NCBI GenBank assembly: GCA_020849175.1
Contig: JADLGR010000341.1
Span: 1-36,897 of the forward strand
Direction of reading: 5' to 3'
DNA length: 36,897 bases
Origin: Deltaproteobacteria bacterium
GTDB lineage: Bacteria > Myxococcota_A > UBA9160
Shown: positions 1 through 33,995 of the stretch, in pieces
Position numbering within the stretch: the first letter of the stretch is position 1
Layout of the letters: each line of letters begins with the position of its first letter
Notes under the pieces: model-generated
The model's input: only the letters and a program-made list of their open reading frames with translations
The model's database searches: none
Told to the model about the DNA's origin: nothing
Position numbers and translations under genes: made by a program

Positions 1-2785
1 GCGTCCCGTCGTCGCCGCGCAGCAACGGAAAGCGCTGCGGCGCTTCGCGAGCGAGCGCCACGAGCTGTGCGATCTCGGCGGGCGCGAGGACGGTATCGCT
101 GCCGCTCGCGCGTGCGCGCACGATGCCCCCTGCCGGCGAGAGCTCCTTGCGAAATGGCGCGGTCGCCTGTGCGAGGTAGCGGACGTCACGACCGTCGGCG
201 CTCACGAGCAGCGACTCGGCCGCCTGCCCATCGACGGCGCCACTCACACCCTCGTTCGTCGCGATCGAGACGAAGCCCGCGCGGCCCCCCTCGACGTCCG
301 CCGTCACCATCACGCCGGACTTCTCGGAAGCGAACGCGGCCTGCAGGAGCACGGCCGGGAACACGTACTCGGGCTGCTCCATGAGCGACTGCCGCCACGC
401 GTAGGAGCGGTCGGTGAACGGCGAGGCCCAGACCTCGCGAATCGCGTCCAGCACGGCCTTCTCGCCGACCACGTTCGAGATCGTGAGGTTGAGACCGGCG
501 CCGGTGAATCCCGCGAGGTCTTCGACGTTGGTGTCGCTGCGGACGAAGACCCCCGCGCCGTCCGGCGCGAGCGTGGCCAGCGCACTGCGAAGCTGCGCCC
601 GGAACTCGTCACCGGGATCGACGGTCGCCGCCCAGCGCCGCATGCGTGCGAGCATCTTCGCAGCGGCCTGCTTCTGCCGCTCCGGCTTCCCCGAGAGCTT
701 CGCGATCGCGGCGTACTGCTGCTGCAGCCAGCCGAAGACCGACGGGCCACCCGGCTCGATGGGCTGGTCGAGGAGCCGGCGAAACGCGCCGAACGGGATC
801 ACGACCCCGTCGGGCACCTGCGTGCCGAACGCGTGGCGCAGCTCGCCGAGGTTCGCGCTCTTGGGACCGGCGAGCCGCCCCGCGTCGCTCGCCCGTAGTG
901 CGTCGAGTGGCACGAAGTCCGTCACGCGAAGGTCGAGCCTTGCGACGTCCGGCTGAATCCTCACACGGGGTGCCTTCGCTTCGACACCGAATGCTTCGTT
1001 CCACTGCGGGCCGTCGGCCTCGAGCCGAACGACGCCACCCGGACTCACGGCGAGGACGACCTGCTTGCCGCTCCGCGCACGGAGCTCGTCGAGTAGCTCG
1101 CGACCGACCACGACGTTCGGGATACCGAGATTGCGCGCGAGGAGCTGCACGTGCGAGAGAGAGCTGCCCTCACCCTGCGTGAGGATCCCCGCCACGGGCG
1201 GAAGCTCGGCGATCGTCTCGGGCAGCAGATAGATCCCGTGGGCGTCGAAGCCGTCCGTGTGGGTGAGATTGCGTGGAAGGCGGAGCGTGCCGCGCGCGAG
1301 GCCGGGGTTGAGCGCGCGTAGGCCCGCACCACGGCGGCGGCCGAAGACCTCGTGCTCGATGCCCGCCTCCGCGTTCGCGTCCTTGACGAGGCCGTCGACG
1401 ATCGTCGCGTACGCGAGGAGCGAGCTTCCGCGCAGCCGGTCCTGCGGATAGCGCTGCGCGAGCGGATCGAGATCCGAGATCGAGTCGACGCCCTCGCCGA
1501 TCTGCATGCTCAGCTCGGCGCCGGCCCACTCCGGAGCGCGCGCGAGCAGCCGCGCCTCCGCGCGGTAGTCGCTCACCGTCGGGCCACCCTCGGCGCCGGT
1601 CAGGCGCTCGACGCTTCGCCGCACCGAGTCGGCGTGCCGCAGGTTGAGCAGTCCGCTGCCCGCGAGCGCGTCGGCCATCTGCGCCAGCCATTCGAGCCGC
1701 TGCCGGCGCGATGCCGCCGGGAGCCGGCGCAGAAGCTCGTTGCCACTCGCGTACGCCGTCTCCTCGAGCGCAACGCTGGTCTCGAAGAGCGCGAGCGCTG
1801 CGGCGCGATCGGCGATCGCCGGAGCTTCACGACGAAGCCGCACGAGCCAGCGGCTCGCCTCGGCAAAGCGCTCGGCCGGGTCGCTCGCTGCGGCGAGGGC
1901 GTCGGCGCCTCGATCGATCTCGCCTGCGAGCGCGGCGCCCGGCAGCGCCTTCGAGAGCACGCGCATGCGATCCGGAGCCGGACTCGGTCCGTAGAGCGCA
2001 TCGATGCGTCGGGCCAGCTCCTCGTAATCGGGGGCCAGCTCACGCCGGCCGTGCGCGCGCGCGAACGCTCGCACCGCCGCAGCATCGCCCGCATCGGGAA
2101 CGCCGTGGATCTTCACGCGGATCGGAAAGAACGCAGGGTCCTGCTCGGCGAGCTTGAGAGCGCGATCGCGGACCTCGGCGGCGGACGGAGCGGCTGCGCC
2201 CGCATCGGGCGAGGCCGGGAGCTGGCGCACGGTCTCGCGCAGCAGGAAGTAGCGTGCGTCGTCGCGCCAGAGGGGATCGCCGAGCAGCGCGCCGACGAGA
2301 CGCGACATGCCCTGCCCTTCGTCTTCAGCCTGCACCGAGCCGCGATAGCTTCGCGTCGCGCGCATCACCCAGCCGTCGTCGGCACCGATCAGGAACCGCT
2401 CGACCAGCATCTGCTGCAGCGCCCGAAGATCCGGTGCGGGACCGGTGAAGCGCTCGGGCTTCACGATGGCGTAGATGTTCGCGATCTCGTAGCCGCCCGC
2501 GCGCAGCGCCGCGACTTCGTCCGTCCACTCGCCGTGCTCGAGGCCCCCGCCGCGCGGGTCGCAGCTCTCCGACGGCGGCAGCACGCTGCCGTCGTTGCAG
2601 TAGTGGCGCAGGTACTTGAAGGGGCCGCGCGGGGCGGCCTTGATCGCCTCGATCTGCTCGCGGACGGTCTTCTCCTCGCCACTGCCTGCGGTCCTCGCGG
2701 CAGCCGTCGCCGCCGGCTTCGGCGCGGCGGCGTGCGCGCAGGGCGCGAGCAGCGCAAGCGCGATCAGTAGTGCGGGCCGCTTCAA
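1..2785 (-). CDS. Exported phosphohistidine-swivel/ATP-grasp protein (dikinase-like), paralogue A, partial at left edge
   Basis: The frame stays open from a TTG at 2785 to the window edge (928 codons), so the C-terminus is missing. The start is supported by a GGGAGGT Shine-Dalgarno five bases upstream and a classic Sec signal peptide (MKRPALLIALALLAPCAHA). The next ~500 residues are helical and unassigned. Around residue 545 is a swivel-domain motif, ILTQGEGSSLSHVQLLAR, with candidate phospho-acceptor His545. This is followed by a PPDK_N-type ATP-binding domain: GPKSANLGEL, then VRSDTNVEDL with Arg749 and TGAGLNLT. No PEP/pyruvate TIM barrel is seen. The swivel-before-ATP-grasp order is that of glucan water dikinases, not PEP synthase. 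By comparison with the full-length paralogue at 7794, about 55-60 residues lie outside. It is translationally coupled to the nucleotide carrier upstream (TTGA). Substrate unknown; domain assignment confident, enzymatic role inferred. Confidence 0.85.
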   Translation of the reverse strand, partial: MKRPALLIALALLAPCAHAAAPKPAATAAARTAGSGEEKTVREQIEAIKAAPRGPFKYLRHYCNDGSVLPPSESCDPRGGGLEHGEWTDEVAALRAGGYEIANIYAIVKPERFTGPAPDLRALQQMLVERFLIGADDGWVMRATRSYRGSVQAEDEGQGMSRLVGALLGDPLWRDDARYFLLRETVRQLPASPDAGAAAPSAAEVRDRALKLAEQDPAFFPIRVKIHGVPDAGDAAAVRAFARAHGRRELAPDYEELARRIDALYGPSPAPDRMRVLSKALPGAALAGEIDRGADALAAASDPAERFAEASRWLVRLRREAPAIADRAAALALFETSVALEETAYASGNELLRRLPAASRRQRLEWLAQMADALAGSGLLNLRHADSVRRSVERLTGAEGGPTVSDYRAEARLLARAPEWAGAELSMQIGEGVDSISDLDPLAQRYPQDRLRGSSLLAYATIVDGLVKDANAEAGIEHEVFGRRRGAGLRALNPGLARGTLRLPRNLTHTDGFDAHGIYLLPETIAELPPVAGILTQGEGSSLSHVQLLARNLGIPNVVVGRELLDELRARSGKQVVLAVSPGGVVRLEADGPQWNEAFGVEAKAPRVRIQPDVARLDLRVTDFVPLDALRASDAGRLAGPKSANLGELRHAFGTQVPDGVVIPFGAFRRLLDQPIEPGGPSVFGWLQQQYAAIAKLSGKPERQKQAAAKMLARMRRWAATVDPGDEFRAQLRSALATLAPDGAGVFVRSDTNVEDLAGFTGAGLNLTISNVVGEKAVLDAIREVWASPFTDRSYAWRQSLMEQPEYVFPAVLLQAAFASEKSGVMVTADVEGGRAGFVSIATNEGVSGAVDGQAAESLLVSADGRDVRYLAQATAPFRKELSPAGGIVRARASGSDTVLAPAEIAQLVALAREAPQRFPLLRGDDGT

Positions 2786-4266
2786 GCTCCACCTCCCGTC
2801 CCGACGGCCGACACCGCGGGCCCCGTCCGCGAAGGGCCCTCGCTCCCCGCCGCCGGACCGCCTCCCTCGGCGGCGAGTCGGGCGTGCTCGCGGGTCACCA
2901 GCGTCGCCAGCGCGAGCCAGCAGACCACGAGGCCGACGGTGAACGCGAAGAAGCCTCCGAGGCCGAGATCGAGTACCTGGACGCCGATGAGCACCGTCAG
3001 CGCCGAGAGCCCGTCACCGGCGCGCGCGAAGAACGAGTCGACGGCCGGCTTCGCCTTCAGCTTCGTGAGCGCAGGCACGGGGAGCCACAGCACGTTTCGC
3101 GACGTGTTGCTGATCGAGTAGTCGGTGGCGTTGTCCGCCACCTTCATCGCCTTCACGACGGCGAGGATCGGGACCACTGCCATCGCCGAATAGGCGAGCA
3201 GCGAGATGATCGGGGAGAACAGCAGCATGATGCCGAAGCCTCCGTACTTGAGCAGGCGTGAGGCGACGAAGCACTGCAGGACCAGCGCCGAGACATTCAC
3301 CCAGAAGTAGAAGCTGCCGTAGAAGACCGCGGTCTGGCTTCGCGTGAAGGCGAGCAGGGCGCTCGGCGCCTCGATCCCTCGGCTGCGCGCCTCTTCCGAG
3401 AGGAAGTCCTGCACGACGCGGAAGAGCAGGTTCTCGCCGTTGGTGTTGACCCAGTTGAGGAGCAGGGTCACGAGAGCGACGGCCAGCAGCATGCGGGACG
3501 AGAAGATGAGCCGCAGCGCGCTGGCTCCCTCGCTCGGGACCGGTCCGGGCTTCGGCCGCGGCGGCGGCGCGTCTGGCGCACCGATCGCCGGACCGAGATG
3601 CTCGGCGCTGCGTGCCAGCGCAGCCGAGAGCCCGAGCGGCACGAGCGCGACCATCAGCAGCGCTTCGAGCGGAAGCAGTCCGCTGCTGACCAGGCCTTCC
3701 GTCAGCCAGGAGCCCGCCACTGCGCCGGACGTGGCGCCAATCGCGACGAGCGGGATGAGACGCCGCCCGCGCTCGTCGGTGTACAGGTCGGCGACGAACG
3801 CCCAGAACTGCGCCACGACGAAGACGCCGAACATCCCCACCCACAGGTAGAAGACGATGCCCGTCTCGGGCAGATTTTCGATGAAGAAGTCGGGCTGCAG
3901 GAACCAGAACACCACCATCGTCGCCATGCAGCCGACCGTGACGCGCGTCAGCAGGTCGATCCGCTTCCAGCGATCGACCAGCGGCGCATAGGCGCGGATC
4001 GCGAAGAGCAGCACCAGCGCCTGTCCGAAGCTCGTGTAGGCCTTGACCTCCATCTTCGAGAGCGACGCGACGCTCGACACTGCGATCCAGCTCTCGCGCA
4101 GCGGCTTGATGAGGTAGTACGCGCACAGCAGCAGGAAGATGCTCGCGAAGAGCCGGAGCGCCGTCGGTCCTTCTCCGGGCCGCACGTCCGTGAACAGGCG
4201 CAGGACCCGCTCGAGCGGCGACGAGGCGGCCGGCGCTGCGGATCGAACGTCGTGCACCGCACTCAT
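2782..4266 (-). CDS. Npt1/Npt2-type nucleotide (ATP/ADP) transporter, TLC/MFS family
   Basis: A polytopic membrane protein of 494 residues, with long hydrophobic segments throughout consistent with about 12 helices. The first helix carries CAYYLIKPLRESW, and the segment KAYTSFGQALVLLFAI with VAQFWAFVADLYTDERGRRL matches the pattern I know from bacterial NTP/NDP exchange transporters (TLC ATP/ADP translocase family). Family members in intracellular bacteria exchange host ATP for ADP; roles in free-living bacteria are largely unknown. ATG at 4266 is the only methionine before the conserved region; anything further upstream in this frame is antisense to the next gene's promoter area. The stop TGA overlaps the TTG start of the exported ATP-grasp protein (TTGA), so the two are one coupled transcript. 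This suggests, by inference, that the carrier supplies or recycles nucleotides for that enzyme. The tail is Gly/Ala-rich and hydrophilic. Confidence 0.83.
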   Translation of the reverse strand: MSAVHDVRSAAPAASSPLERVLRLFTDVRPGEGPTALRLFASIFLLLCAYYLIKPLRESWIAVSSVASLSKMEVKAYTSFGQALVLLFAIRAYAPLVDRWKRIDLLTRVTVGCMATMVVFWFLQPDFFIENLPETGIVFYLWVGMFGVFVVAQFWAFVADLYTDERGRRLIPLVAIGATSGAVAGSWLTEGLVSSGLLPLEALLMVALVPLGLSAALARSAEHLGPAIGAPDAPPPRPKPGPVPSEGASALRLIFSSRMLLAVALVTLLLNWVNTNGENLLFRVVQDFLSEEARSRGIEAPSALLAFTRSQTAVFYGSFYFWVNVSALVLQCFVASRLLKYGGFGIMLLFSPIISLLAYSAMAVVPILAVVKAMKVADNATDYSISNTSRNVLWLPVPALTKLKAKPAVDSFFARAGDGLSALTVLIGVQVLDLGLGGFFAFTVGLVVCWLALATLVTREHARLAAEGGGPAAGSEGPSRTGPAVSAVGTGGGA

Positions 4267-4425: not shown

Positions 4426-5442
4426 GTGAGGCGAAGGACCGGCGCGCTGGCGGTCGCGGCACTTCTCGCGGCCGGGATGCCGGGCTGCAAGAAAGACCCC
4501 TGCGACGTCGTGATCTACACGTACGTCGAGCAGTCGCACTCCGAGCCCGTGATTCGCGCGTTCGAGAAGGAGTCCGGACTGCGGGTCTGCGCCTCCTACT
4601 CGGGCTTCGAGATCAAGGCGTCGGGCATCCTGCACCGGCTGGCCTCGGAGGCGGATCGTCCGTCCGCCGACGTGCTCTGGGCCGACGACCCGGTGCGGCC
4701 GCTGCTGCTCGTTCGTCGTGGGCTGATCGAGCTCTACCTCTCGCCCGCCGCGGAAGGGATCCCCTCGGCGTTCCGCGCCCCGGACGGTTTGTGGACGGGC
4801 GTCGGTGCGCAGGCGCGCGTGCTGCTCGTCAATACGAAGCTCGTCGCGGACAAGGCTCGGCCGTCTTCGATCCGCGATCTCGCGAACCCACGCTGGAAGG
4901 GGCGCGTCGCGATCCCGAACCCGGTCCATGGCTCGACTCTCGTCCAGATGGGTGCGCTGACCGCACTCTGGGGAGAGGACGAGACGCGCTCCTTTCTCGG
5001 CACGCTCCGAGCCAACGAGGTGCGGGTCGCGACCACGAGCTGGGACGTGATGCAGCTCGTCTCGAAGGGCGACGTCGCCGTTGGTCTCACGAACACCGAC
5101 CACGCGGATGCGGCGGTCGCGTCGGGCGCTCCGGTCGCGATCGTCTATCCCGATCAGGACCCAAAGGGCATCGGCACGCTGGTGCTCCCCACCAGCGTGC
5201 TGCTGCTCCGCAATGGCCCGCACCCTGCGGCAGGTCGCCGGCTCGTCGACTACCTCGTCTCTCCCGCCGCCGAGGCCGCGCTGTGCCGGACGAATGCGTA
5301 CTTTCCGCTGCGCGCAAACCCTGCGCCACCGGCCGGGATGCGGCGGCTCGACGAGATTCGTGCGATGCCGCTCGATGTCGCTCGCGCGGGCGACGAGATC
5401 GATCGCATCAAGCCCGAACTCGAGCGCTGGCGCGGCCGCTAG
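4426..5442 (+). CDS. Extracellular solute-binding lipoprotein (Fe(III)/family 1 type)
   Basis: A periplasmic binding protein of 338 residues. GTG at 4426 is chosen because AGGAG lies seven bases upstream and it places a short charged N-terminus before a hydrophobic stretch ending in GMPGC, an imperfect lipobox with lipid-modified Cys expected at residue 20. The mature start, DVVIYTYVEQSHSEPVIRAF followed by EKESGLRV, matches the FbpA/AfuA-like family that binds ferric iron or other small anions and polyamines. Later landmarks include LWADDPV, a ...NPRWKGRVAIP... segment and the TDHADAA region. No ABC permease or ATPase gene is adjacent, so the partner transporter must be elsewhere or the protein serves another role. 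It is divergent from the nucleotide transporter across a 159-base spacer. Ligand not assignable. Confidence 0.82.
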   Translation: MRRRTGALAVAALLAAGMPGCKKDPCDVVIYTYVEQSHSEPVIRAFEKESGLRVCASYSGFEIKASGILHRLASEADRPSADVLWADDPVRPLLLVRRGLIELYLSPAAEGIPSAFRAPDGLWTGVGAQARVLLVNTKLVADKARPSSIRDLANPRWKGRVAIPNPVHGSTLVQMGALTALWGEDETRSFLGTLRANEVRVATTSWDVMQLVSKGDVAVGLTNTDHADAAVASGAPVAIVYPDQDPKGIGTLVLPTSVLLLRNGPHPAAGRRLVDYLVSPAAEAALCRTNAYFPLRANPAPPAGMRRLDEIRAMPLDVARAGDEIDRIKPELERWRGR

Positions 5443-5489
5443 CGCCCGGGTCGCGTTGCGGCCGGCGCAGGCTCGCCGATACTCGTCCC

Positions 5490-6182
5490 GTGCCGTCGAT
5501 CGACCGCCTGCTCGAGATCATGGCAAAGCTGCGAAGCCCCGCCGGCGGCTGCCCGTGGGACCTCGAGCAGCGCTTCGAGACGATCGCTCCCTATACCATC
5601 GAAGAAGCCTACGAGGTCGACGACGCCATTCGCCGGGGCGACATGGGCGCGCTTCGCGAAGAGCTCGGCGATCTGCTGCTCCAGGTGGTCTTCCACGCGC
5701 AGATGGCGCAGGAGGAGGGCCTCTTCGGGTTTGGCGACGTCGTCGAGGAGATCTGCGACAAGCTGGTCCGGCGTCACCCGAACGTCTTTGCGGATGCGCA
5801 CGTCCCGGACGCACGCGCGCAGATCGCGGCGTGGGAGGAGAGCAAGGCGAAGGAGCGCGCGGCCAAAGGCGGCGAAGAGAGCCATCCCCTCGGCGGCGTG
5901 CCGCTCGGTCTTCCGGCTCTCCTGCGCGCCGAGAAGCTGCAGCGCCGCGCGGCCCGCGCCGGTGCGAAGTCGCCCGACTTCGCTTCCGCTGCGGGCGAGA
6001 TCGAGGCGCGCCTCGTCGAGCTTCGCTCCGCCTGCGCCGCGGACGCTCCGCGCGCCGCCGTGGGCGAGCTTCTATTCGCCGCCGTGGCCCTCGCCCGCGC
6101 CCTCGACCTCGAGCCCGAGGAGTGCCTGCGCGACGCAAACGCTCGTTTCGAGCACCTGTTCCGAACGACGAAGGATCGCTGA
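5490..6182 (+). CDS. mazG: Nucleoside triphosphate pyrophosphohydrolase MazG
   Basis: All-alpha NTP pyrophosphohydrolase of 230 residues that hydrolyses NTPs or dNTPs to monophosphates. The signature CPWDLEQ near residue 21 and the metal-binding EExxE...ExxD set (EEAYE at 38-42, EELGD at 57-61) are intact, followed by LLLQVVFHAQM and the RRHPNVF motif. The C-terminal half contains the second, degenerate MazG repeat (LLRAEKLQRRA). The start is taken as GTG 5490 (VPSIDRLLEIM), which gives the usual family N-terminus; the frame is open far upstream but that part overlaps the preceding gene in another frame. It lies 47 bases after the solute-binding lipoprotein and two bases before the next gene, so it is likely co-transcribed with the latter. 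Confidence 0.93.
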   Translation: MPSIDRLLEIMAKLRSPAGGCPWDLEQRFETIAPYTIEEAYEVDDAIRRGDMGALREELGDLLLQVVFHAQMAQEEGLFGFGDVVEEICDKLVRRHPNVFADAHVPDARAQIAAWEESKAKERAAKGGEESHPLGGVPLGLPALLRAEKLQRRAARAGAKSPDFASAAGEIEARLVELRSACAADAPRAAVGELLFAAVALARALDLEPEECLRDANARFEHLFRTTKDR

Positions 6183-6184
6183 GG

Positions 6185-6655
6185 GTGTCGCGGCGCGCGC
6201 AGATTCGGATGACCGACGAAGAGCTCCGCGCCTTCGTGGGGGGCGCGCGCACCATCATCCTGTGCAGCAACGACCCGGCGGGCTTCCCGCACCCGATGCC
6301 GATGTGGTTCGGACTCGAGGACGACGGCGCGGTCGTGATGACGACCTTCGCGAAGAGTCAGAAGGTGAAGAATCTCGAACGCGACGCACGCGTCTCGCTG
6401 CTGATCGAGGACGGCGAAGAGTACGCGAAGCTTCGCGGGGTCGTGCTCTACGGGCGCGCGGAGCTCGTCCGCGCGCCCGAGACCGTGCTCGACTGTCTGG
6501 AGCGCATCACGGTGCGCAACGCCGGGACGCCCGGCGCGAGCCCGGCCGTGATGCGCGAGACGCTGCGACGAACCGCGGCCAAGCGCGTCGCGATCCGCGT
6601 GCGTCCCGAACGGATCGTATCGTGGGACCATGCGAAGCTCGGCGGGGTCTACTGA
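6185..6655 (+). CDS. PPOX-class split-barrel flavoprotein (pyridoxamine 5'-phosphate oxidase-related)
   Basis: A small split-barrel protein of 156 residues, related to F420- or FMN-dependent oxidoreductases of the pyridoxamine-phosphate-oxidase superfamily. Recognisable segments are MTDEELRAFV, the substrate-side strand GFPHPMPMWFGLEDDG, TTFAKSQKVKNLERDARVSL (a cofactor phosphate-binding region typical of the family) and GRAEL. I use GTG at 6185, two bases after the mazG stop; ATG at 6209 (MTDEEL) is an equally reasonable start and would give 148 residues. Cofactor (FMN or F420) and substrate cannot be decided by eye. The last seven bases overlap the tail of the convergent beta-lactamase-like gene. 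Confidence 0.85.
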   Translation: MSRRAQIRMTDEELRAFVGGARTIILCSNDPAGFPHPMPMWFGLEDDGAVVMTTFAKSQKVKNLERDARVSLLIEDGEEYAKLRGVVLYGRAELVRAPETVLDCLERITVRNAGTPGASPAVMRETLRRTAAKRVAIRVRPERIVSWDHAKLGGVY

Positions 6656-7716
6656 GCGAGCTGCGGCGACGGCTCGGAGGTCGACGCAGAGGCGAGCCAG
6701 CGACGCGCAGCCGTCTCCGTGAGATCCGCGATGAAGTCACCGCGGTAGTGCGGCCGTGCCTCGGTGAAGACGACGACCACGATCTCGTGCCCAGAGCGAT
6801 GGCGCACGATGCCGGCGTCGGCATAGATCGGACCCCAGGTTCCGCTCTTCGCGTACGTCTCGAGGCCCCCCACGCGCTCCGCGCCACCGGCGATGCGCGC
6901 GGCGAGGTGACGCTGCTCGCGGGAGTCGCGCCGCATGCGGCGGCGCACGGTCGCCGAGTCGTCCGGACCGAGCGCGTGGCCGGTCGCGAGCAGCGCCAGC
7001 AGCTTCGCGGTGCCGGTCGCGGTCATCGCCGTACGGTTCGAGAACTCCCCGTCCGCGCTCGGCAGGCCGCCCGGCACGTCGCGGTCGGAGAGGAACTGCT
7101 CCTCACGCCCCGAGATGTCGCCTCCTCCGTCGTACGTCGGATTCACGGTGTGCAGATCGGTGATGCCGAGGGAGCGCAGCCAGCGCTCGACGCCCAGCCG
7201 TCGCTCGCGAAACTCGGCGTAGGGCCCCGGTGGTAGCGATGGACCGGGGAGTGCTCCGGTCAGGCGTGCGAAGACCTCCTGCGTGGCCCGGTTGCTGCTC
7301 ACCCGGATCATCTGCTCGAGCGCGCGATCGAGCGGCTCGTCGATCTGGAGCCTGCCGTCCTGCTGGAACGCGTAGGCCGCCATCAGATACACGAACTTGA
7401 CGACGCTCGCGGGATAGACCGGAGCGTCACCATGCCAGTGGGCAAGCCGCGGCCCACCGGCGCCGCCGAGATCGAGGACCGCAGCACGCAGCGACGCGCG
7501 CCGAAGCTCCGGGTCGCTCGCGAGCCGGGCCTCGACGAAGCCATCGAGCTGGCCCTGGAGCGACTCCGACGGCTCGATCCGGGCCAGATAGGCGCGCGAC
7601 TCCTCCGTGCGAGGCGGCGTAGCCGGAGCCGACTGCGCCCACGCCGCCGGACCGAGGCCGGCGGCCAGGACCGCAGCGGCCACGAGCGTTCGCCCGGCTT
7701 CCACCCATGCTCCCAT
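6649..7716 (-). CDS. Exported class A beta-lactamase-like serine hydrolase
   Basis: A secreted penicillin-recognising serine hydrolase of 355 residues. The signal peptide is LVAAAVLAAGLGPAAWA, with cleavage expected after residue 27. The three active-site elements of the class A fold are in order: SxxK as S104-V-V-K107, an SDN-like S140-S-N142, and a KTG-like K290-S-G292. The Omega-loop glutamate that drives deacylation in true class A enzymes is not clearly identifiable; the region has an EEQFLSDRD insert instead. A peptidoglycan-related esterase or peptidase role is therefore as likely as antibiotic hydrolysis. ATG 7716 is preferred over ATG 7746 and 7842 because it places the signal peptide directly at the N-terminus. 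It is divergent from paralogue B across 77 bases and overlaps the convergent PPOX gene by seven bases. Confidence 0.85.
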   Translation of the reverse strand: MGAWVEAGRTLVAAAVLAAGLGPAAWAQSAPATPPRTEESRAYLARIEPSESLQGQLDGFVEARLASDPELRRASLRAAVLDLGGAGGPRLAHWHGDAPVYPASVVKFVYLMAAYAFQQDGRLQIDEPLDRALEQMIRVSSNRATQEVFARLTGALPGPSLPPGPYAEFRERRLGVERWLRSLGITDLHTVNPTYDGGGDISGREEQFLSDRDVPGGLPSADGEFSNRTAMTATGTAKLLALLATGHALGPDDSATVRRRMRRDSREQRHLAARIAGGAERVGGLETYAKSGTWGPIYADAGIVRHRSGHEIVVVVFTEARPHYRGDFIADLTETAARRWLASASTSEPSPQLAQ

Positions 7717-7793
7717 CGCGGCGCGCGAGGATAGCCCGAAGGGCATCGGGGCGTATACCGTAGGGACGCCCGAGCGGTTGGGGGGGGCCGAGC

Positions 7794-10700
7794 ATGATGG
7801 TGAGAACGGCGATCGGACGAATCGGTGCGACGCGATGGGCACGGCATGGACGGCTCGTCCGATCCAGCCTCGCGCTCGCGGCGTCGCTCGCGCTCGTACG
7901 CGCCGCGAGCGCGCTCCAGGCGCCCGAGCTGACGGCGGCGCAGGAGCGAGACCTCCAACAGAACTTCTCGCTCTCGCTCACCAAGCTCAAGGGTCCCTAC
8001 ACCGAGAACACCTGCGTGTGCCCGAACGGGACCAAGCGGCCGATTCGCAGCGCGAGCGGCGCGCTCGGCGCGGCCTGCGAGAACCCGATCTTCTGCGCGG
8101 CCTACAGGGCGCCGTGGGGCGAGGCGCTCGCGAAGCAGCGCGTCTACATCGGCAACATCTTCTCACGCGACGTGTACGAGTGGGGCTCCTACCCGGATCA
8201 CAACGATCTCGTCCGTGGTTACGTCCTCGAGAAGTACTTCACCGAAACCAATCCCCGGCACAAGCTCGCGCAGCTCCGGGCCTTCCGCGGCCTCGCGAGC
8301 TCCGAAGAAGAGGCGCCCGCGGCGCCGAAGCTGTTCGAGCGCTATCTGGCCTCGCCCGAGTTCGACGAAGCGCGGCACTTCCTGCTCGCTTACGAGCTCC
8401 AGAAGCGCTTCTTCGTCCGTAGTGACATCGGCCAGATCCAGCAGGTGCGCGCGATGGCCACGCGCATCGAGTCGATGGATCCGCGCTTCAAACCGCTCAA
8501 GGACTCGGTCCACAATCAGCTCTCTGCCGGGCTCATCTCACGACTCGAGGAGTACCGCGACAAGCTTCCGCAGGGAGCCGAGCGCAGCGAGATCGATCGC
8601 CTCATCGCCGAGATCGTGAGGCTCACGAGCATCGACGAGAAGGCGCTCGATCCGCAGATCGGAGCGATCCAGGACGAGGCGCTTCGCGGTCAGCTTCGCG
8701 CGCTGGTTCCCGGACCCAACACGGATCCCGTCGAGGCGATCTCAGCGCTCGCGCAGATCATGCTGACCGCGCGGCAGGCCGTCGCCGCGAAGAAGGCGTC
8801 CCCCGCCGACGCTCGCCGGCTCATCGATCTCGACATCACTGCGGGCGCCGTCTTGAATCGCAGGGGCACGGCGCTCCTCGAGTCGGGCAACGCCATGACG
8901 GCGCGGCAGGGCCTCCAGATCCTCGCCGCGCTCACCAACGCCACCTTCGCCACCGGGCTGCTCAACGACCGCGAGCGCGACGCTGCGCTCGGCGCCCTGC
9001 AGGAGCTGCTCGCGAAGCCGACGCAGGGTCGCGCGGAGTTCAAGAGCGGCCTCGAGCAGGCCGAGCGCATCGTCGAGTGGGCACAGGCCAATGCGACGCT
9101 GCCCTTCGCCGAAGTGTGGGCGCAGTGGACCCTGCTCATGCCGCAGGTGGCCGGGATCGGCGACGACATCCTGCGCGCTTCGCCGCTCCTGCTCTATGCA
9201 CGAATGGCCCGCCGGCTCGACGACTTCGCAGCCGGTGGAACTCGGCCCGGGCACGATTTCTTCGGGCAACCGCTCGACACCGACGTCCGCGCGCTCAACC
9301 CCGGCCTCGCTCTCGCCCGCCTGCGCGTCGCGCCGAAGGCAGGCGGATACACGCGCGAGGAGATCGTCGCGCTACCCGAGACACCAGCCGATCTCGAGCC
9401 CGCGGCCGGAATCCTGACCCGCGGCGAAGGCAACGTGCTCTCGCACGTTCAGCTCCTCGCACGCGCCCTCGGCATCCCGAACGTCGTCCTCGGACCGCGC
9501 GCCTACGAGCTGCTCGTGCCACACGACGGCCAGCAGGTGCTCTTCATCTCGACGCCCGGCGGGCGCGTGATCGTGAAGCAGGCTTCGGCCATGACCGATC
9601 AGGACCGTCTCGTCTACGAGGAGTTCACGCGCAACGACGAGCGCGTGGGGGACGGTTCACTCGAGGTCGCGGGAGCGAAGCTTCACATCGACAAGGCGAA
9701 GATCGATCTCGGACCAAAGCTCCCGATCGATCTCGCGAAGGTTCGGCGAAGCGACTCGGGGAAGATGTGCGGCCCGAAAGCCGCCTATCTCGGCGAGCTC
9801 AAGCACCTGTTCCCCGACCGGGTCTCGCGCGGGATCGTCGTGCCGTTCGGCGCGTACCACGCGCACTATCAGGCGGCGAAGGTGAGCGTTCCGGAGAAGC
9901 TGCGCGGGATGGGGCTCGCCACTGCCGGCGAGCCGCTCCCGGCCTTCGTCGAGCGCACGTACGCCGAGTTCTTCGGCAAGCAGATTCCGTCGAAGAAGAG
10001 CGAGCGCGAGCTGACGGCATGGATCGAGCCGCGGCTGTCGGTGATGCGGCACTCGATCCAGAGTACGCCGCTCGCGAAGGAGCTCTCCGACGCCATCAAG
10101 AGCAGCCTCGGCGCGCTCGGCCTTCTCGACCCGGCGAACGACGAGCAGACGGTCGGCTGCTTCGTTCGCAGCGACACCAACGTCGAGGATCTCGACAACT
10201 TCAACGGTGCGGGTCTCAACCTCACGCTCTTCAACCGCAGGTCGCTCTCCGACATCGGCGAGGCGCTGAAGGAGGTCTGGGCGTCGCCTTTCTCGCTCCG
10301 CTCCTTCTCGTGGCGGCAGACGCTGATCGACGAGCCGCTGTGGGTCCTGCCGTCGGTCGTCATCCTCGAGTCGGTTCCGTCCGAGAAGTCGGGCGTGCTC
10401 GTGACCGGCGACATCTACGACGGTGCGGCGGGCAAGATGACGATCGCCACCTCCGAGGGCGTGGGCGGCGCCGTCGACGGTACGTCGGCCGAGACGCTGC
10501 TGTGGTCACCGGCCGGTGTCGAGATCGTGACCCTGTTCAAGTCGCCGTGGCGCAACCAGCTCCAGCCCGGCGGCGGCACCGCGATCGTCCCCGCGACCGG
10601 CAGCGCGACCGTGCTCCAGCCCGCCGAGATCGAGCAGCTCGTCGCCGCAGGGAAGGCGATCACCGAGAAGTTCGAGCCGACGAAGGACCCGGCGGGCATC

Positions 10701-10874
10701 GTGCGGCCGTGGGACATCGAGTTCGGCTTCGTGAAGGGCCGGCTCTGGCTGTTCCAGTGTCGCCCATTCATAGGCAACGACTCGCTCAAGAACGTGCCTG
10801 CGCTCGCCTCGCTCGAAGGCAAGACGGGCGTCGGCGCGGCGAGCTCGCTCCACCTCGAGGAGGTTCTCCCGTGA
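7794..10874 (+). CDS. Exported phosphohistidine-swivel/ATP-grasp protein (dikinase-like), paralogue B, full length
   Basis: Secreted protein of 1026 residues with a basic N-region and signal peptide (SLALAASLALVRAASA). An N-terminal ~500-residue helical region, with Cys pairs near CVCPNGTKRP, precedes the swivel motif ILTRGEGNVLSHVQLLAR with candidate phospho-acceptor His551. The C-terminal ATP-binding domain has GPKAAYLGEL, VRSDTNVEDL (Arg792), GAGLNLT, VWASPFSLRS and the closing motif DIEFGFVKGRLWLFQCRPF, the usual end of PEP-synthase/PPDK nucleotide-binding domains. Nothing follows it, so the pyruvate/PEP barrel is absent. Domain order matches plant-type glucan water dikinase. It shares long near-identical stretches with the protein at the left edge. 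The stop overlaps the next start (TGATG). In the known fold, ATP phosphorylates the His and the phosphate passes to a substrate; here the substrate is unknown. Confidence 0.9.
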   Translation: MMVRTAIGRIGATRWARHGRLVRSSLALAASLALVRAASALQAPELTAAQERDLQQNFSLSLTKLKGPYTENTCVCPNGTKRPIRSASGALGAACENPIFCAAYRAPWGEALAKQRVYIGNIFSRDVYEWGSYPDHNDLVRGYVLEKYFTETNPRHKLAQLRAFRGLASSEEEAPAAPKLFERYLASPEFDEARHFLLAYELQKRFFVRSDIGQIQQVRAMATRIESMDPRFKPLKDSVHNQLSAGLISRLEEYRDKLPQGAERSEIDRLIAEIVRLTSIDEKALDPQIGAIQDEALRGQLRALVPGPNTDPVEAISALAQIMLTARQAVAAKKASPADARRLIDLDITAGAVLNRRGTALLESGNAMTARQGLQILAALTNATFATGLLNDRERDAALGALQELLAKPTQGRAEFKSGLEQAERIVEWAQANATLPFAEVWAQWTLLMPQVAGIGDDILRASPLLLYARMARRLDDFAAGGTRPGHDFFGQPLDTDVRALNPGLALARLRVAPKAGGYTREEIVALPETPADLEPAAGILTRGEGNVLSHVQLLARALGIPNVVLGPRAYELLVPHDGQQVLFISTPGGRVIVKQASAMTDQDRLVYEEFTRNDERVGDGSLEVAGAKLHIDKAKIDLGPKLPIDLAKVRRSDSGKMCGPKAAYLGELKHLFPDRVSRGIVVPFGAYHAHYQAAKVSVPEKLRGMGLATAGEPLPAFVERTYAEFFGKQIPSKKSERELTAWIEPRLSVMRHSIQSTPLAKELSDAIKSSLGALGLLDPANDEQTVGCFVRSDTNVEDLDNFNGAGLNLTLFNRRSLSDIGEALKEVWASPFSLRSFSWRQTLIDEPLWVLPSVVILESVPSEKSGVLVTGDIYDGAAGKMTIATSEGVGGAVDGTSAETLLWSPAGVEIVTLFKSPWRNQLQPGGGTAIVPATGSATVLQPAEIEQLVAAGKAITEKFEPTKDPAGIVRPWDIEFGFVKGRLWLFQCRPFIGNDSLKNVPALASLEGKTGVGAASSLHLEEVLP

Positions 10875-12514
10875 TGCGCGCCGGTCTACGCCTCGCTCTC
10901 GTCGTCGCCCTCGCTTCGTCCATTTCAGCGCCCGCAGCGCGCGCTGCCCTCGACTCGCAGGGCGATGCCACCTGGGACGGAAGTCAGCCGCCCGAGGGCG
11001 TCTTCTTCCACTGGTACGAGCCGTCGTTCTATGCGGGCTTCGCGCCGCGAACGCAGGATCCGTCGCGTCCGCACATCGAGCTCTCGCGCGGCAATCAGGT
11101 TCGCGTCACGATCCCGCTCGGCGAGAAGGAGCTCGACGTCTACCTCGACGATCTCGTCGCGCGCCGCAAGATCTATCAGGAGCTGATCGACGCAAAGGTC
11201 ATCACGCTCACCACCAACCGCGAGTACGAGCGCTTCGTCGAGGCACTCGCCGCGAAGGGGGTCGAGCAGGCGGCCGCGAGCCGCGCGAGCCTCGGCCCCG
11301 AGGCCTACCGTGACAAGACCGTCGAGATCCTCTCTGCGCTCGAGCCGGACCGCGTGTTCCGCGTCTCGATCCCGCTCGACGCCGTCGTCGCGAAGTGGAA
11401 GACGACCCTCGCGACCGCGAACCTCTCGTCCGAAGCGGGTCGCATCGACGCCGCCAACGCGGCCCTACCCGGGCGCATCGACCTCTACGATCTCGACGCC
11501 GGCGTCGGTGCGTCGCTGCAGAAGGCCGCCGACGCGTCGAAGGCCGGAGACGACGCCGGTCTGCGGACAGCGGCACAGGAGCTGATCGAGAAGGCATCTT
11601 CCGGCCACTACCGCGTGCGCGACGGAAAGGTCGAGGCGATCGAGTTCACCGCGATCTATCCGGCCGGAACGATCGAGGGAACGACCAGCTACGGCGGCGA
11701 GCGGCTGCCCGAGTTCGGCGTGACCGGCATCTGGCCGCTCATCCGGCGAACGACCGGGCGCGGCCAGCTCGGGATGGTCGACTACATCTCGCCGAACCCC
11801 GGCTACGGGTTCATCAGCATGTTCCCGTACCAGTTCGCGGGCGGCATCGCTTACAACGCCTTCCACAACGCCGGTGTCCGCTGCCAGCTCAACTCGACGC
11901 CGTTCCTTCCCAAGGAGTGGCGAAAGCAGGCCGGCGAACGCGACTCGGGCAAGTCGTATCAGAACCTCTGGATCGCGAGTCGCGCGCCCACCTCGCACGG
12001 CTGCACGCGTCTGGGGTCCGGCCACATGAGCGAGCTGCGCCAGGTGACACCGACCAGCTCGGACGACCTCGTGAAGGTGCCGACCTACCGCAATCAGCCG
12101 TACTGCCACGACGTCTTCGACGTCGAGGGCGATGGCAAGGACGAGGTGATGGGCGTGCAGTACTACCTCGCCTACCGCAGCACCGACGACCGCATTCCGA
12201 TCGCGGCCTACGTCACCAACAAGCGCGAGCCCTTCTACCGCTGGCTCTACGGACAGAACGTGAGTCTCGGCCCCGTCGGGCAGACGAGCATCAAGCAGGT
12301 GCCCGTCTGTCGCTTCGCACCGCGCAAGGCGGAGCTGAGCGAGACGCTCTCGAACGTCCCGCTCTACGAGGCGAAGTGGGCGCCGGAGACGATCCAGTTC
12401 TACACGATCCGCGGACACGCACCCGACAGCGGGCCCGGCTTCGAGCTCAACCGCGAGCTGCGCAAGGTGGGCGCGGGTCACACGACCGACCGGAGCAAGC
12501 TGCTGCTCCGCTAG
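10874..12514 (+). CDS. Secreted L,D-transpeptidase-like protein (SHGCTR signature), large divergent form
   Basis: Exported protein of 546 residues with a clear Sec signal peptide (LRLALVVALASSISAPAARA). The C-terminal half has APTSHGCTRLGSGHMSELR, with S374-H375-G-C377-T-R379 matching the catalytic S/T-HGC-x-R signature of YkuD L,D-transpeptidases, and an upstream His in NAFHNAG that could correspond to the conserved family histidine. The N-terminal 250 residues are family-unknown and helix-rich. A calcium-like DVEGDGKDE motif follows the catalytic region. It is much longer than classical L,D-transpeptidases (about 170-330 residues) and overall divergent, so peptidoglycan 3-3 crosslinking is a hypothesis. 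ATG 10874 overlaps the dikinase-like stop by one base, so the two proteins are probably made together and act in the same compartment. Confidence 0.75.
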   Translation: MRAGLRLALVVALASSISAPAARAALDSQGDATWDGSQPPEGVFFHWYEPSFYAGFAPRTQDPSRPHIELSRGNQVRVTIPLGEKELDVYLDDLVARRKIYQELIDAKVITLTTNREYERFVEALAAKGVEQAAASRASLGPEAYRDKTVEILSALEPDRVFRVSIPLDAVVAKWKTTLATANLSSEAGRIDAANAALPGRIDLYDLDAGVGASLQKAADASKAGDDAGLRTAAQELIEKASSGHYRVRDGKVEAIEFTAIYPAGTIEGTTSYGGERLPEFGVTGIWPLIRRTTGRGQLGMVDYISPNPGYGFISMFPYQFAGGIAYNAFHNAGVRCQLNSTPFLPKEWRKQAGERDSGKSYQNLWIASRAPTSHGCTRLGSGHMSELRQVTPTSSDDLVKVPTYRNQPYCHDVFDVEGDGKDEVMGVQYYLAYRSTDDRIPIAAYVTNKREPFYRWLYGQNVSLGPVGQTSIKQVPVCRFAPRKAELSETLSNVPLYEAKWAPETIQFYTIRGHAPDSGPGFELNRELRKVGAGHTTDRSKLLLR

Positions 12515-31062: not shown

Positions 31063-32793
31063 ATGCCCGGTGAGGAGCAGCTCGTCCTGGGTCTCGAGGC
31101 GGCGGCGCGCTCCGCGAGCGCGCCCGTCGCAGCGCGTGCGTCCGACGCAGCCGCGCAGAGTGCGGCTGCGCGCGGCAAGGCCCCGCGCCCGATGAAGGCG
31201 CGCGGCAAGGCGGCCGCCGATCGCGCGCCCGCGCGCGCCACGGCGAGCGACCTCGCGAAGAAGCAGCGCGAGATCTCGGTCTCCGAGTTCTTCGCGAAGA
31301 ACCGCCACCTGCTCGGCTTCGACAACCCGAGCAAGGCGCTGCTCACGACGGTGAAGGAAGCGGTCGACAACGCGCTCGACGCCTGCGAGGAGGCCGGGAT
31401 CCTCCCCGACCTGCGCGTCGAGATCGTCCAGCTCGCCGAGACACGCTTCCGTGTCGCCGTCGAGGACAACGGCCCCGGGATCGTCCGCGCTCAGGTGCCG
31501 AAGGTCTTCGGTCGCCTGCTCTACGGCTCGAAGTTCCACCGCCTTCGCCAGAGCCGCGGCCAGCAGGGGATCGGCATCAGTGCGGCCGGCATGTACGGCC
31601 TGCTCACGACCGGAAAGCCCGTCGTCATCACCACCCGCACCGATCCGAAGAAGAAGGCGCACCACCTCGAGCTCGTGATCGACACGCGCAGCAACGAGCC
31701 GAAGGTCACGCGCGACGACGAGGTCGCGTGGGACAGGCCCCATGGAACGCGCGTCGAGATCGAGCTCGAGGCGGCCTACCGCGGCGGACGGCAGGGTGTC
31801 GACGCGTATCTCGAGCAGGTCTCGCTCGCGAATCCGCACGCCGAGATCGTCTACCTGCGGCCGAAGGCCGCCGAGGGAGATGCCGAGCGACGGCTCCCGC
31901 GCGTGACGAGCGACCTGCCCCCGCACACGGCCGAGATCCAGCCGCACCCCTACGGCGTCGAGCTCGGCGTGCTGATGCAGATGTTTCGCGACACGAAGGC
32001 GCGAAACCTGAAGAGCTGCCTCGGCACCGACTTCTCGCGCGTCTCGCCCCGCATCGCCGACGAGATCTGTCAGCGCGCGAAGGTCCAGCCGACGCGGCGG
32101 CCGTCCGAGATCGGTCGCGACGAGGCCGAGCGCATCCACGTCGCGATCCAGGCCACGAAGATCATGGCGCCGCCCACCGACTGCATCGCGCCGATCGGCG
32201 AGGAGCTGATCGAACGTGCCCTCCGCGCCGAGGTGAAGAGCGACTTCGTCGCCGCAGTGACGCGCCGCCCCGAGGTCTACCGCGGCAACCCCTTCCTCGT
32301 CGAGGTCGGCCTCGCGTACGGCGGGGACCTCTCCGCCGAAGAGCCCGTGACGCTCTTCCGCTACGCGAACCGTGTCCCGCTCCAGTACCAGCAGGGCGCC
32401 TGCGCGATCACGAAGGCCGTGATGGGCACGGACTGGAAGGCGTACCACCTCCAGCAGCCGAAGGGCGCGCTCCCGATCGGGCCGATGCTCCTCATGGTGC
32501 ACATCGCGAGCGTGTGGGTGCCGTTCACGTCCGAGAGCAAGGAGGCCATCGCGTCGTATCCCGAGATTCTCAAGGAGATCCGGCTCGGCGTGCAGGAGTG
32601 CGGGCGCAAGGTCTCGCACTTCATCAGCAAGCGCCGGCGAGAGGCCGACGAGGCCAAGAAGCGCGCGTACATCGACAAGTACATTCCGCAGGTCGCGATC
32701 GGCCTGCAGCAGATCCTCGGCTTCGACGACGCCGAGCGCGCGCGCGTGGTGGCGAGCCTCGAGGGCGTGCTCGAGCGCAGCCGGAGGCTGTAG
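31063..32793 (+). CDS. top6B: DNA topoisomerase VI subunit B
   Basis: A 576-residue GHKL ATPase subunit of a type IIB topoisomerase, which relaxes and decatenates DNA by ATP-gated duplex passage. Bergerat-fold motifs: N-box KEAVDNALDAC (N103), G1 EDNGPGI (D135, G139), G2 GQQGIGIS (166-173). The transducer domain with the conserved switch-lysine region (QPKGALPIG) and a C-terminal coiled helix follow. A 70-residue Ala/Arg/Lys-rich extension precedes the family start (QREISVSEFFAKN). ATG 31063 has GTGAGG just upstream; GTG 31054 is three codons longer. The stop overlaps the A-subunit start (TAGTG). Topo VI is typical of archaea and plants and patchy in bacteria, so ancient transfer is likely. 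Confidence 0.95.
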   Translation: MPGEEQLVLGLEAAARSASAPVAARASDAAAQSAAARGKAPRPMKARGKAAADRAPARATASDLAKKQREISVSEFFAKNRHLLGFDNPSKALLTTVKEAVDNALDACEEAGILPDLRVEIVQLAETRFRVAVEDNGPGIVRAQVPKVFGRLLYGSKFHRLRQSRGQQGIGISAAGMYGLLTTGKPVVITTRTDPKKKAHHLELVIDTRSNEPKVTRDDEVAWDRPHGTRVEIELEAAYRGGRQGVDAYLEQVSLANPHAEIVYLRPKAAEGDAERRLPRVTSDLPPHTAEIQPHPYGVELGVLMQMFRDTKARNLKSCLGTDFSRVSPRIADEICQRAKVQPTRRPSEIGRDEAERIHVAIQATKIMAPPTDCIAPIGEELIERALRAEVKSDFVAAVTRRPEVYRGNPFLVEVGLAYGGDLSAEEPVTLFRYANRVPLQYQQGACAITKAVMGTDWKAYHLQQPKGALPIGPMLLMVHIASVWVPFTSESKEAIASYPEILKEIRLGVQECGRKVSHFISKRRREADEAKKRAYIDKYIPQVAIGLQQILGFDDAERARVVASLEGVLERSRRL

Positions 32794-33995
32794 TGGCGGC
32801 GAAGAAGACTCCGAAGAAGCCCGCGACGCCGGCAGCGCCGAAGGCGCCCGGAGCGGCGATGGCCGCAGGCGGCGAAAAGGTCGTCGCGCGCAACAAGGCG
32901 CTCGACGAGACCACCGTGCGTCTCATCCGCGACGCCGCGAGCGACGTCCATGGCGAGATTCGACGGGAGAAGAAGCCCGACCTCGCCTTCCCCGTCCGTG
33001 CGCTCGGAAACGTCACCTACTCCGACAAGAAGGGCTACTTCGAGATCGGGCGGCAGAAGAAGGTTCGCACCCTCACCGTCAACACGGTGAAGAGCTTCGC
33101 GCAGACGCTTCGCATGATGGGGCTCTCGAAGGAGCTGATCGAGAACAACGACTTCGCGACCAAGCGAGACGCCTACTACCAGAGCAAGAACTGGGACGAG
33201 GCGCGCTTCGACGAGCAGACCGAATCCGACACCGTGATGGACGACATCGAGGCGCTGTTCTCGGTGCGCGGCGTCTCGCGCGAGCAGCTTCGCTTCGTTC
33301 CCGACGAGCACGGCGGCGCGGTCGCAGGCAACCTCGTCGTGCTCGATCCCGACCGCGAGACGGGCGCCATCGAACGCATCGACTGCACGCGCTTCGGCTC
33401 GGGTGCGTACTCGATTCCGTCGACCGTCGAGCACCTCTCGTTCGAGACCGACGCGAAGTTCGTCCTCGCCATCGAGACCGGCGGCGTGTTCCAGCGCCTG
33501 CAGAGCCACAAGTTCTGGCAGACGGCGAACTGCATCCTCGTCTCGATGGCGGGCGTCCCGACGCGCGCAACGCGGCGCTTCATTCGCAAGCTGAGCGACG
33601 AGTGCCGGATGCCCGTCTACGCGTTCGTCGACTGCGATCCGTACGGCATCTCGAACATCTACCGCACACTGAAGGTCGGATCGGGCAACGCAGCGCACCT
33701 CTCGCAGTTCTTCTGCGTTCCCCACGCCCGCTACCTCGGCGTGACGCCGCAAGACATCACCGACTATCGGCTCCCGACGCACCCACTGCAGGACGTCGAC
33801 GTGAAACGCGCGAAGGACGCGCTCAAGAACGATCCCTTCTTCCAGACCCACAAGCCGTGGCGGAAGGCGATCGACCAGCTTCTCCAGATGGGCGTTCGCG
33901 CCGAGCAGCAGGCGCTCGCGAAGTGGGGCCTCAACTACGTGATCGACGAGTACCTGCCCCGCAAGCTCGCGCACCCCGAGCAGTTCCTGCCCTGA
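32793..33995 (+). CDS. top6A: DNA topoisomerase VI subunit A (Spo11-like)
   Basis: The 400-residue DNA-cleaving subunit. The winged-helix (CAP) domain carries ATKRDAYYQSKNW, in which Tyr129 aligns with the Spo11 catalytic tyrosine that forms the 5'-phosphotyrosyl link. The TOPRIM domain has glutamate 228 (LAIETGGVFQRL) and the metal-binding D280-C-D282 (VYAFVDCDPYGI). A histone-H1-like N-terminal tail (AAKKTPKKPATPAAPKAPG) is unusual for the family and probably disordered and DNA-contacting. It starts at GTG 32793, one base overlapping the B subunit stop, and its own stop overlaps the glycosyltransferase start (TGATG). All key residues are present, so an active enzyme is expected. Confidence 0.95.
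   Translation: MAAKKTPKKPATPAAPKAPGAAMAAGGEKVVARNKALDETTVRLIRDAASDVHGEIRREKKPDLAFPVRALGNVTYSDKKGYFEIGRQKKVRTLTVNTVKSFAQTLRMMGLSKELIENNDFATKRDAYYQSKNWDEARFDEQTESDTVMDDIEALFSVRGVSREQLRFVPDEHGGAVAGNLVVLDPDRETGAIERIDCTRFGSGAYSIPSTVEHLSFETDAKFVLAIETGGVFQRLQSHKFWQTANCILVSMAGVPTRATRRFIRKLSDECRMPVYAFVDCDPYGISNIYRTLKVGSGNAAHLSQFFCVPHARYLGVTPQDITDYRLPTHPLQDVDVKRAKDALKNDPFFQTHKPWRKAIDQLLQMGVRAEQQALAKWGLNYVIDEYLPRKLAHPEQFLP

Follow-up and report, generated by a model that had tools for sequence, protein, structure and literature searches.

A locus pairing a nucleotide translocase-family carrier with an exported dikinase is conserved in unrelated bacteria and may supply ATP outside the inner membrane

Overlapping carrier and dikinase genes

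The window (i.e., the whole 36,897-nucleotide stretch of DNA analyzed here) opens with two overlapping genes on the minus strand. The first (positions 2782 to 4266) encodes a 494-aa carrier of the TLC/NTT family with an MFS-type fold (hereinafter c1), assigned from its open reading frame (ORF), a family profile, and an AlphaFold model. The second (positions 1 to 2785) encodes an exported dikinase (c0), which starts with TTG at position 2785 and is cut at base 1 by the end of the window. Contig C272 of the same genome, whose overlap with the end of the window is exactly 127 bases, completes this protein to 988 aa. The two genes share the bases TTGA (positions 2782 to 2785, minus strand), in which TGA is the carrier stop codon and TTG the dikinase start codon, and the same 4-base overlap is present in a genome of the same genus (L065). 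Checked against ORFs, Pfam, and sequence, a preliminary description of this DNA had the coordinates, the TTGA overlap, the signal peptide, and the domain assignments right.

Domain architecture and relatives of the exported dikinase

The dikinase consists of a signal peptide, a helical N-terminal domain of approximately 470 aa, a swivel domain (PF00391; residues 520 to 568; E = 4.3e-6), and a C-terminal PPDK_N ATP domain (PF01326; residues 638 to 853; E = 1.3e-23). An orthologue from the same genus yielded an AlphaFold model with a pLDDT of 89.1. The predicted Sec-type signal peptide, MKRPALLIALALLAPCAHA (cleavage before A; positions 2729 to 2785, minus strand), was recognized by eye and from its conservation among orthologues. 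By one crude rule, a signal-peptide-like start was found in 74 of 75 dikinase orthologues versus 54 of 159 neighboring ORFs, a high background (34%) to which some truly exported proteins contribute; the signal peptide proposed in the preliminary description is conserved. Two conserved cysteines in the N-terminal region also fit an oxidizing compartment.

The swivel histidine (His545; codon at positions 1151 to 1153, minus strand, in GEGSSLSHVQLLARN), which corresponds to His538 of L065, is invariant in all 78 sequences. The ATP-site Lys is also invariant, and the ATP-site Glu, Gln, and Arg residues are invariant or nearly so, with their motifs intact; PEP synthase and rifampin phosphotransferase have the same full set (Lys, Arg, Glu, Gln, and Arg). 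Because RSDTNVED and GAVDGQ.. served as scan patterns, their invariance in the scan loci, including that of the first ATP-site Arg, arises partly by selection; the swivel His and the ATP-site Lys were outside the patterns. In one sequence (L075:5587-8547), the aligned swivel region lacks the residues after LSHLQLL, which may reflect an assembly or sequencing error.

The ATP domain is homologous to those of PEP synthase, pyruvate phosphate dikinase (PPDK), and rifampin phosphotransferase, which were its best PDB matches (~20 to 22% identity). Unlike these enzymes, the dikinase is predicted to be exported, has its swivel domain first, and ends after the ATP domain, with no PEP/pyruvate-binding C-terminal domain. 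Its scores against the NCBIfam models of PEP synthase and PPDK were far under the cutoffs, and a cytoplasmic PEP synthase was ruled out by the absent PEP domain and the presence of the signal peptide. In plant glucan, water dikinase (GWD), a swivel domain is likewise followed by an ATP domain. GWD and PWD resemble the dikinase in having the swivel His domain ahead of a C-terminal ATP domain, but c0 is bacterial, is predicted to be Sec exported, and has another N-terminal domain. Pfam matched no carbohydrate-binding family in the dikinase, the starch-binding N-terminal modules being absent, and none of the PDB matches listed provided a solved-structure counterpart for the N-terminal domain. For GWD, a chemistry involving the beta-phosphate and the histidine has been proposed (PMC7569903).

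The carrier belongs to the NTT family but departs from it at key residues

The relationship of the carrier to other proteins was recovered with family profiles, not with single-sequence searches. On its own, the window protein had no Pfam match, and single-sequence searches of NCBIfam and the PDB gave nothing useful, yet 13 of 16 close orthologues matched Pfam TLC (best E = 8.6e-10). The family profile matched PDB entries 9j3n (E = 1.8e-30) and 9j3j (E = 6e-25), with alignments covering most of each. With the AlphaFold model of the carrier (pLDDT, 88.9) as the query, NTT structures were the four best PDB matches in Foldseek (highest TM, normalized by query length, 0.72) and ranked above all other MFS proteins in the list. 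For profile and model alike, the best matches are ATP/ADP translocators with solved structures, from Chlamydia and Arabidopsis. A second carrier subfamily (c1b) occupies the same place in the locus in Guyparkeria, Halothiobacillus, some Mariprofundus and Desulfobacterota, and all 22 of its members matched Pfam TLC (best E = 1.7e-23).

Four charged residues (i.e., Lys155, Glu245, Glu385, and Lys527) are needed in AtNTT1 (PMC3306366, PMC4256464), and these positions were mapped onto the carriers with hmmalign. The c1 carriers have Ser or Ala at 155, Gly at 245, Glu at 385, and Asp at 527 and thus keep only Glu385; the Asp was found in 21 of 21 c1 carriers, including that of the window. The corresponding residues of c1b are Trp, Asp, Glu or Asp, and Lys, with Lys527 kept in 22 of 22 carriers. 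Changing Lys527 in AtNTT1 abolishes ATP binding, and ADP binding does not need this residue (PMC3306366), which is thought to be important for nucleoside triphosphates, not diphosphates; two microsporidian NTTs deviate at three of the four positions and retain Lys527 (PMC4256464). The carriers resemble the NTT/TLC ATP/ADP translocators (PF03219; e.g., AtNTT1 and C. pneumoniae NTT1) in fold, full-length profile match, and Glu385, and c1b does so also in Lys527. They differ in that c1 is without three of the four key charged residues, their hosts are free-living, and an exported ATP-site enzyme is their fixed partner. From the residue pattern (Asp527 in c1 and Lys527 in c1b), together with the profile and model matches, we therefore regard homology to the NTTs as firm and ATP as a less secure cargo.

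A four-gene locus with two exported serine enzymes

Scanning GTDB species genomes with the dikinase yielded 80 loci, some from cultured strains, in Myxococcota/Deltaproteobacteria, Desulfobacterota, Magnetococcales, and Gamma-, Beta-, and Zetaproteobacteria (groups as recorded). Four genes make up the locus: the carrier, the dikinase, and genes for two exported serine enzymes of the class-A beta-lactamase/penicillin-binding protein (PBP) fold (c2 and c3). The c3 gene, whose product is the exported beta-lactamase-fold protein next to the dikinase, starts in the region of the dikinase stop codon (ATGA), and c2 then follows on the opposite strand. Relatives from the same order have the carrier, c2, c3, and the dikinase, often with c4 or with c5 and c6 (see below), separated by gaps of a few bases or overlapping.

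In 73 of the 77 loci where it could be checked, the gene immediately downstream of the dikinase is c3. Forty-eight loci had enough flank for all partners to be scored, with c3 in 46, c2 in 43, and c1 in 36; adding c4-type matches to c1 brings the carrier count to 39, two of these three extra matches being weak. The examined flank was without c1 in 12 of the 48 loci and without any carrier-type gene in 9, and a carrier was found elsewhere in all eight such genomes searched (L132 was left out). In two of these genomes, the unlinked carrier still adjoins c2.

The SxxK, SxN, and KSG motifs are intact in both c2 and c3. PF13354 was matched by two c2 proteins (E = 2e-18 and 1e-20) and, with E values below 0.1, by 11 of 13 c3 proteins (best E = 6.4e-7), and the c2 profile had a weak match to Tll2115, which we take to be PBP-A. 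In these respects, the two proteins resemble PBP-A and the class-A beta-lactamases, but each represents a separate, divergent family that accompanies the dikinase. An anti-phage defense system was also considered and was rejected, since PADLOC returned no match for the dikinase, the carrier, c2, or c3.

A second dikinase locus in the window

Beyond the genes of the preliminary description, which included neither this paralogue nor the beta-lactamase-fold partners, the window encodes a second exported dikinase (positions 7794 to 10874, plus strand), identified by Pfam and sequence comparison as a c0 paralogue (33% identity) with the same domain order. Divergent from it is a gene for an exported enzyme of the class-A beta-lactamase family (positions 6649 to 7746, minus strand; PF13354, E = 1.2e-15). 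Downstream, and joined to the paralogue by a TGATG overlap, is a gene for an exported protein (positions 10874 to 12514, plus strand) whose SHGCTRL motif resembles that of YkuD L,D-transpeptidases. The YkuD assignment of this protein is by the SHGC motif only, with no Pfam match at 0.1 and no PDB profile match. The three genes occur together in five other genomes.

Carrier and dikinase co-occur in four groups of bacteria

The presence of the two genes was compared genome by genome in four groups. In the order of the window's genome (61 genomes; dikinase at E <= 1e-20, close carrier at E below 1e-80, and distant homologue at E <= 1e-5), a close carrier was found in 22 of 24 dikinase genomes (one of the 24, G011, has a partial and more distant dikinase) versus 0 of 37 others (Fisher p = 1e-14); with distant homologues counted, the carrier was present in 23 of 24 versus 6 of 37 (Fisher p = 3e-10), both p values treating as independent genomes that are phylogenetically not so. 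In the order of Guyparkeria, both genes are present in the same 9 of 27 genomes. The dikinase was detected in 4 of 116 genomes in the order of Agaribacterium; all four have a carrier at E below 1e-130 and no other genome does, although distant NTTs are present in 23 of the others. For the class of Mariprofundus, a carrier was found in 17 of 17 dikinase genomes (in one of these as a fragment at a contig edge) versus 3 of 44 others. When the four groups were pooled, 53 of 54 dikinase genomes had a carrier homologue; each group was chosen around a genome in which the dikinase was already known, and the four separate groups nevertheless agree. The pairing noted in the preliminary description thus extends well beyond one genome, to four groups and to loci in several phyla and classes.

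Possible function of the locus

The periplasm of bacteria is generally considered to be free of ATP. The sequences suggest that unrelated bacteria keeping this locus may supply ATP outside the inner membrane, and we put at roughly even chances a conserved envelope phosphotransfer system in which ATP exported by the carrier powers the transfer of phosphate to an acceptor in the envelope. Seated in the inner membrane, the NTT-family carrier would move adenine nucleotide, most likely ATP outward against ADP or AMP plus phosphate; both cargo and direction are what we infer from homology and gene partnership. In the exported dikinase, the beta-phosphate of ATP would be loaded onto the swivel histidine, with release of AMP and phosphate, and the swivel domain would shuttle between the ATP domain at the C terminus and the helical domain at the N terminus. 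The phosphate would then pass to a periplasmic acceptor, and AMP, ADP, and phosphate would return. The best-studied bacterial NTTs import ATP, which counts against this reading, as do the retention of Glu385 alone in c1 and the 12 of 48 loci with c1 out of the flank.

Since two exported enzymes with an active-site serine and the penicillin-binding/class-A beta-lactamase fold are the constant partners, the acceptor would probably be peptidoglycan or else a peptide or glycan that is made from it or trimmed off it. That both dikinase versions travel with exported enzymes of the type acting on peptidoglycan peptides is the main, indirect reason for considering the wall, which is perhaps the acceptor as guessed from neighboring genes. 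A fuller version, in which a dedicated carrier exports ATP, the dikinase phosphorylates peptidoglycan or another wall polymer, and the two penicillin-binding-type serine enzymes process the product, is a tentative proposal and on balance doubtful. The preliminary description had already read the pair as a periplasmic phosphorylation system; the widespread pairing and the conserved signal peptide strengthen that reading, and its wall acceptor gains indirect support from the c2/c3 motifs and the SHGC protein. Its assumption of a nucleotide substrate is weakened for the window's carrier by the Asp at the Lys527 position, although c1b keeps the Lys there.

The strongest rival, because of the Asp at position 527, places the carrier on the product side, where it would take up AMP, ADP, phosphate, or another nucleotide while ATP reached the periplasm in another way. 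Asp at this position in all c1 carriers fits such return traffic, given that Lys527 of AtNTT1 is needed for binding of ATP but not of ADP (PMC3306366; cf. PMC4256464), but the c1b carriers in the same place uniformly keep the Lys. This reading, which we consider unlikely, also needs a separate periplasmic source of ATP, and we know of none. Quite improbable, too, is a carrier that moves a non-nucleotide envelope compound (e.g., a peptidoglycan fragment) linking it to the dikinase. The absence from c1 of three of the four NTT residues, the constant carrier-c2 link, and the sharing of the MFS fold by unrelated carriers would accord with such a cargo; against it, ATP/ADP translocators make up all of the best matches in fold and in sequence, and an ATP-site enzyme outside the membrane still requires ATP.

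PPDK-type reactions are reversible, and the dikinase might run in reverse, making external ATP from AMP, phosphate, and an external phospho-compound for import by the carrier. Such energy scavenging would parallel the import of ATP by NTTs of intracellular parasites (PMC5381601), but it is very unlikely for a dikinase without a PEP-binding domain whose partners are beta-lactamase-fold enzymes, not catabolic ones. Ordinary linkage of unrelated envelope genes through operon history, with no common substrate, would explain why the carrier lies apart from the dikinase in some genomes, but the near-perfect match of presence and absence in four groups and the two carrier subfamilies in the same place leave it the slimmest chance of all.

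Export of ATP to an envelope dikinase would, if true, add an ATP-driven covalent step to envelope biology, and such a periplasmic ATP supply would parallel, in bacteria, the way in which ATP is brought into the ER/Golgi lumen for the kinases that work there. The parts come from known families, and the system itself appears to be new. The open-access literature searched gave no account of an exported dikinase or of the locus; a prior description is possible in subscription papers or preprints, which were outside the search. NTTs are widespread in free-living bacteria, with roles unknown, according to the accessible part of the survey by Major et al., 2017, which describes no NTT partner of the exported-dikinase type (PMC5381601). 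The locus ties such an NTT to an exported ATP-site enzyme and thereby offers a testable function, and cultured hosts include Mariprofundus ferrooxydans PV-1, Guyparkeria hydrothermalis, Parahaliea, and Agaribacterium.

Accessory and neighboring genes

Several further genes accompany the locus in relatives. The c4 proteins (L081:12243-15410 and homologues), encoded divergently from the dikinase, are fusions that combine an NTT-like/MFS domain with HEAT repeats and a cyclic-nucleotide-binding domain (cNBD), and c4 was beside the cassette in 10 of 20 relatives' stretches. They share the architecture of the NTT-HEAT-cNBD fusions, which have neither an assigned function nor a described partner in the accessible part of the survey (PMC5381601). 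Upstream of the dikinase in some families are c5 (L071:4768-6083 and homologues), a lipoprotein with weak similarity to LapG-type cysteine proteases, and c6, a small exported protein.

Two other gene pairs were noted in the window. At positions 4477 to 6182, a gene divergent from the carrier reads by eye as an iron ABC transporter-type solute-binding lipoprotein and is followed by a MazG-like gene, and both also flank the carrier in L065. At positions 31063 to 33995, the first of two adjacent genes reads by eye like subunit B of DNA topoisomerase VI, an enzyme unusual in bacteria, and the second could be subunit A.
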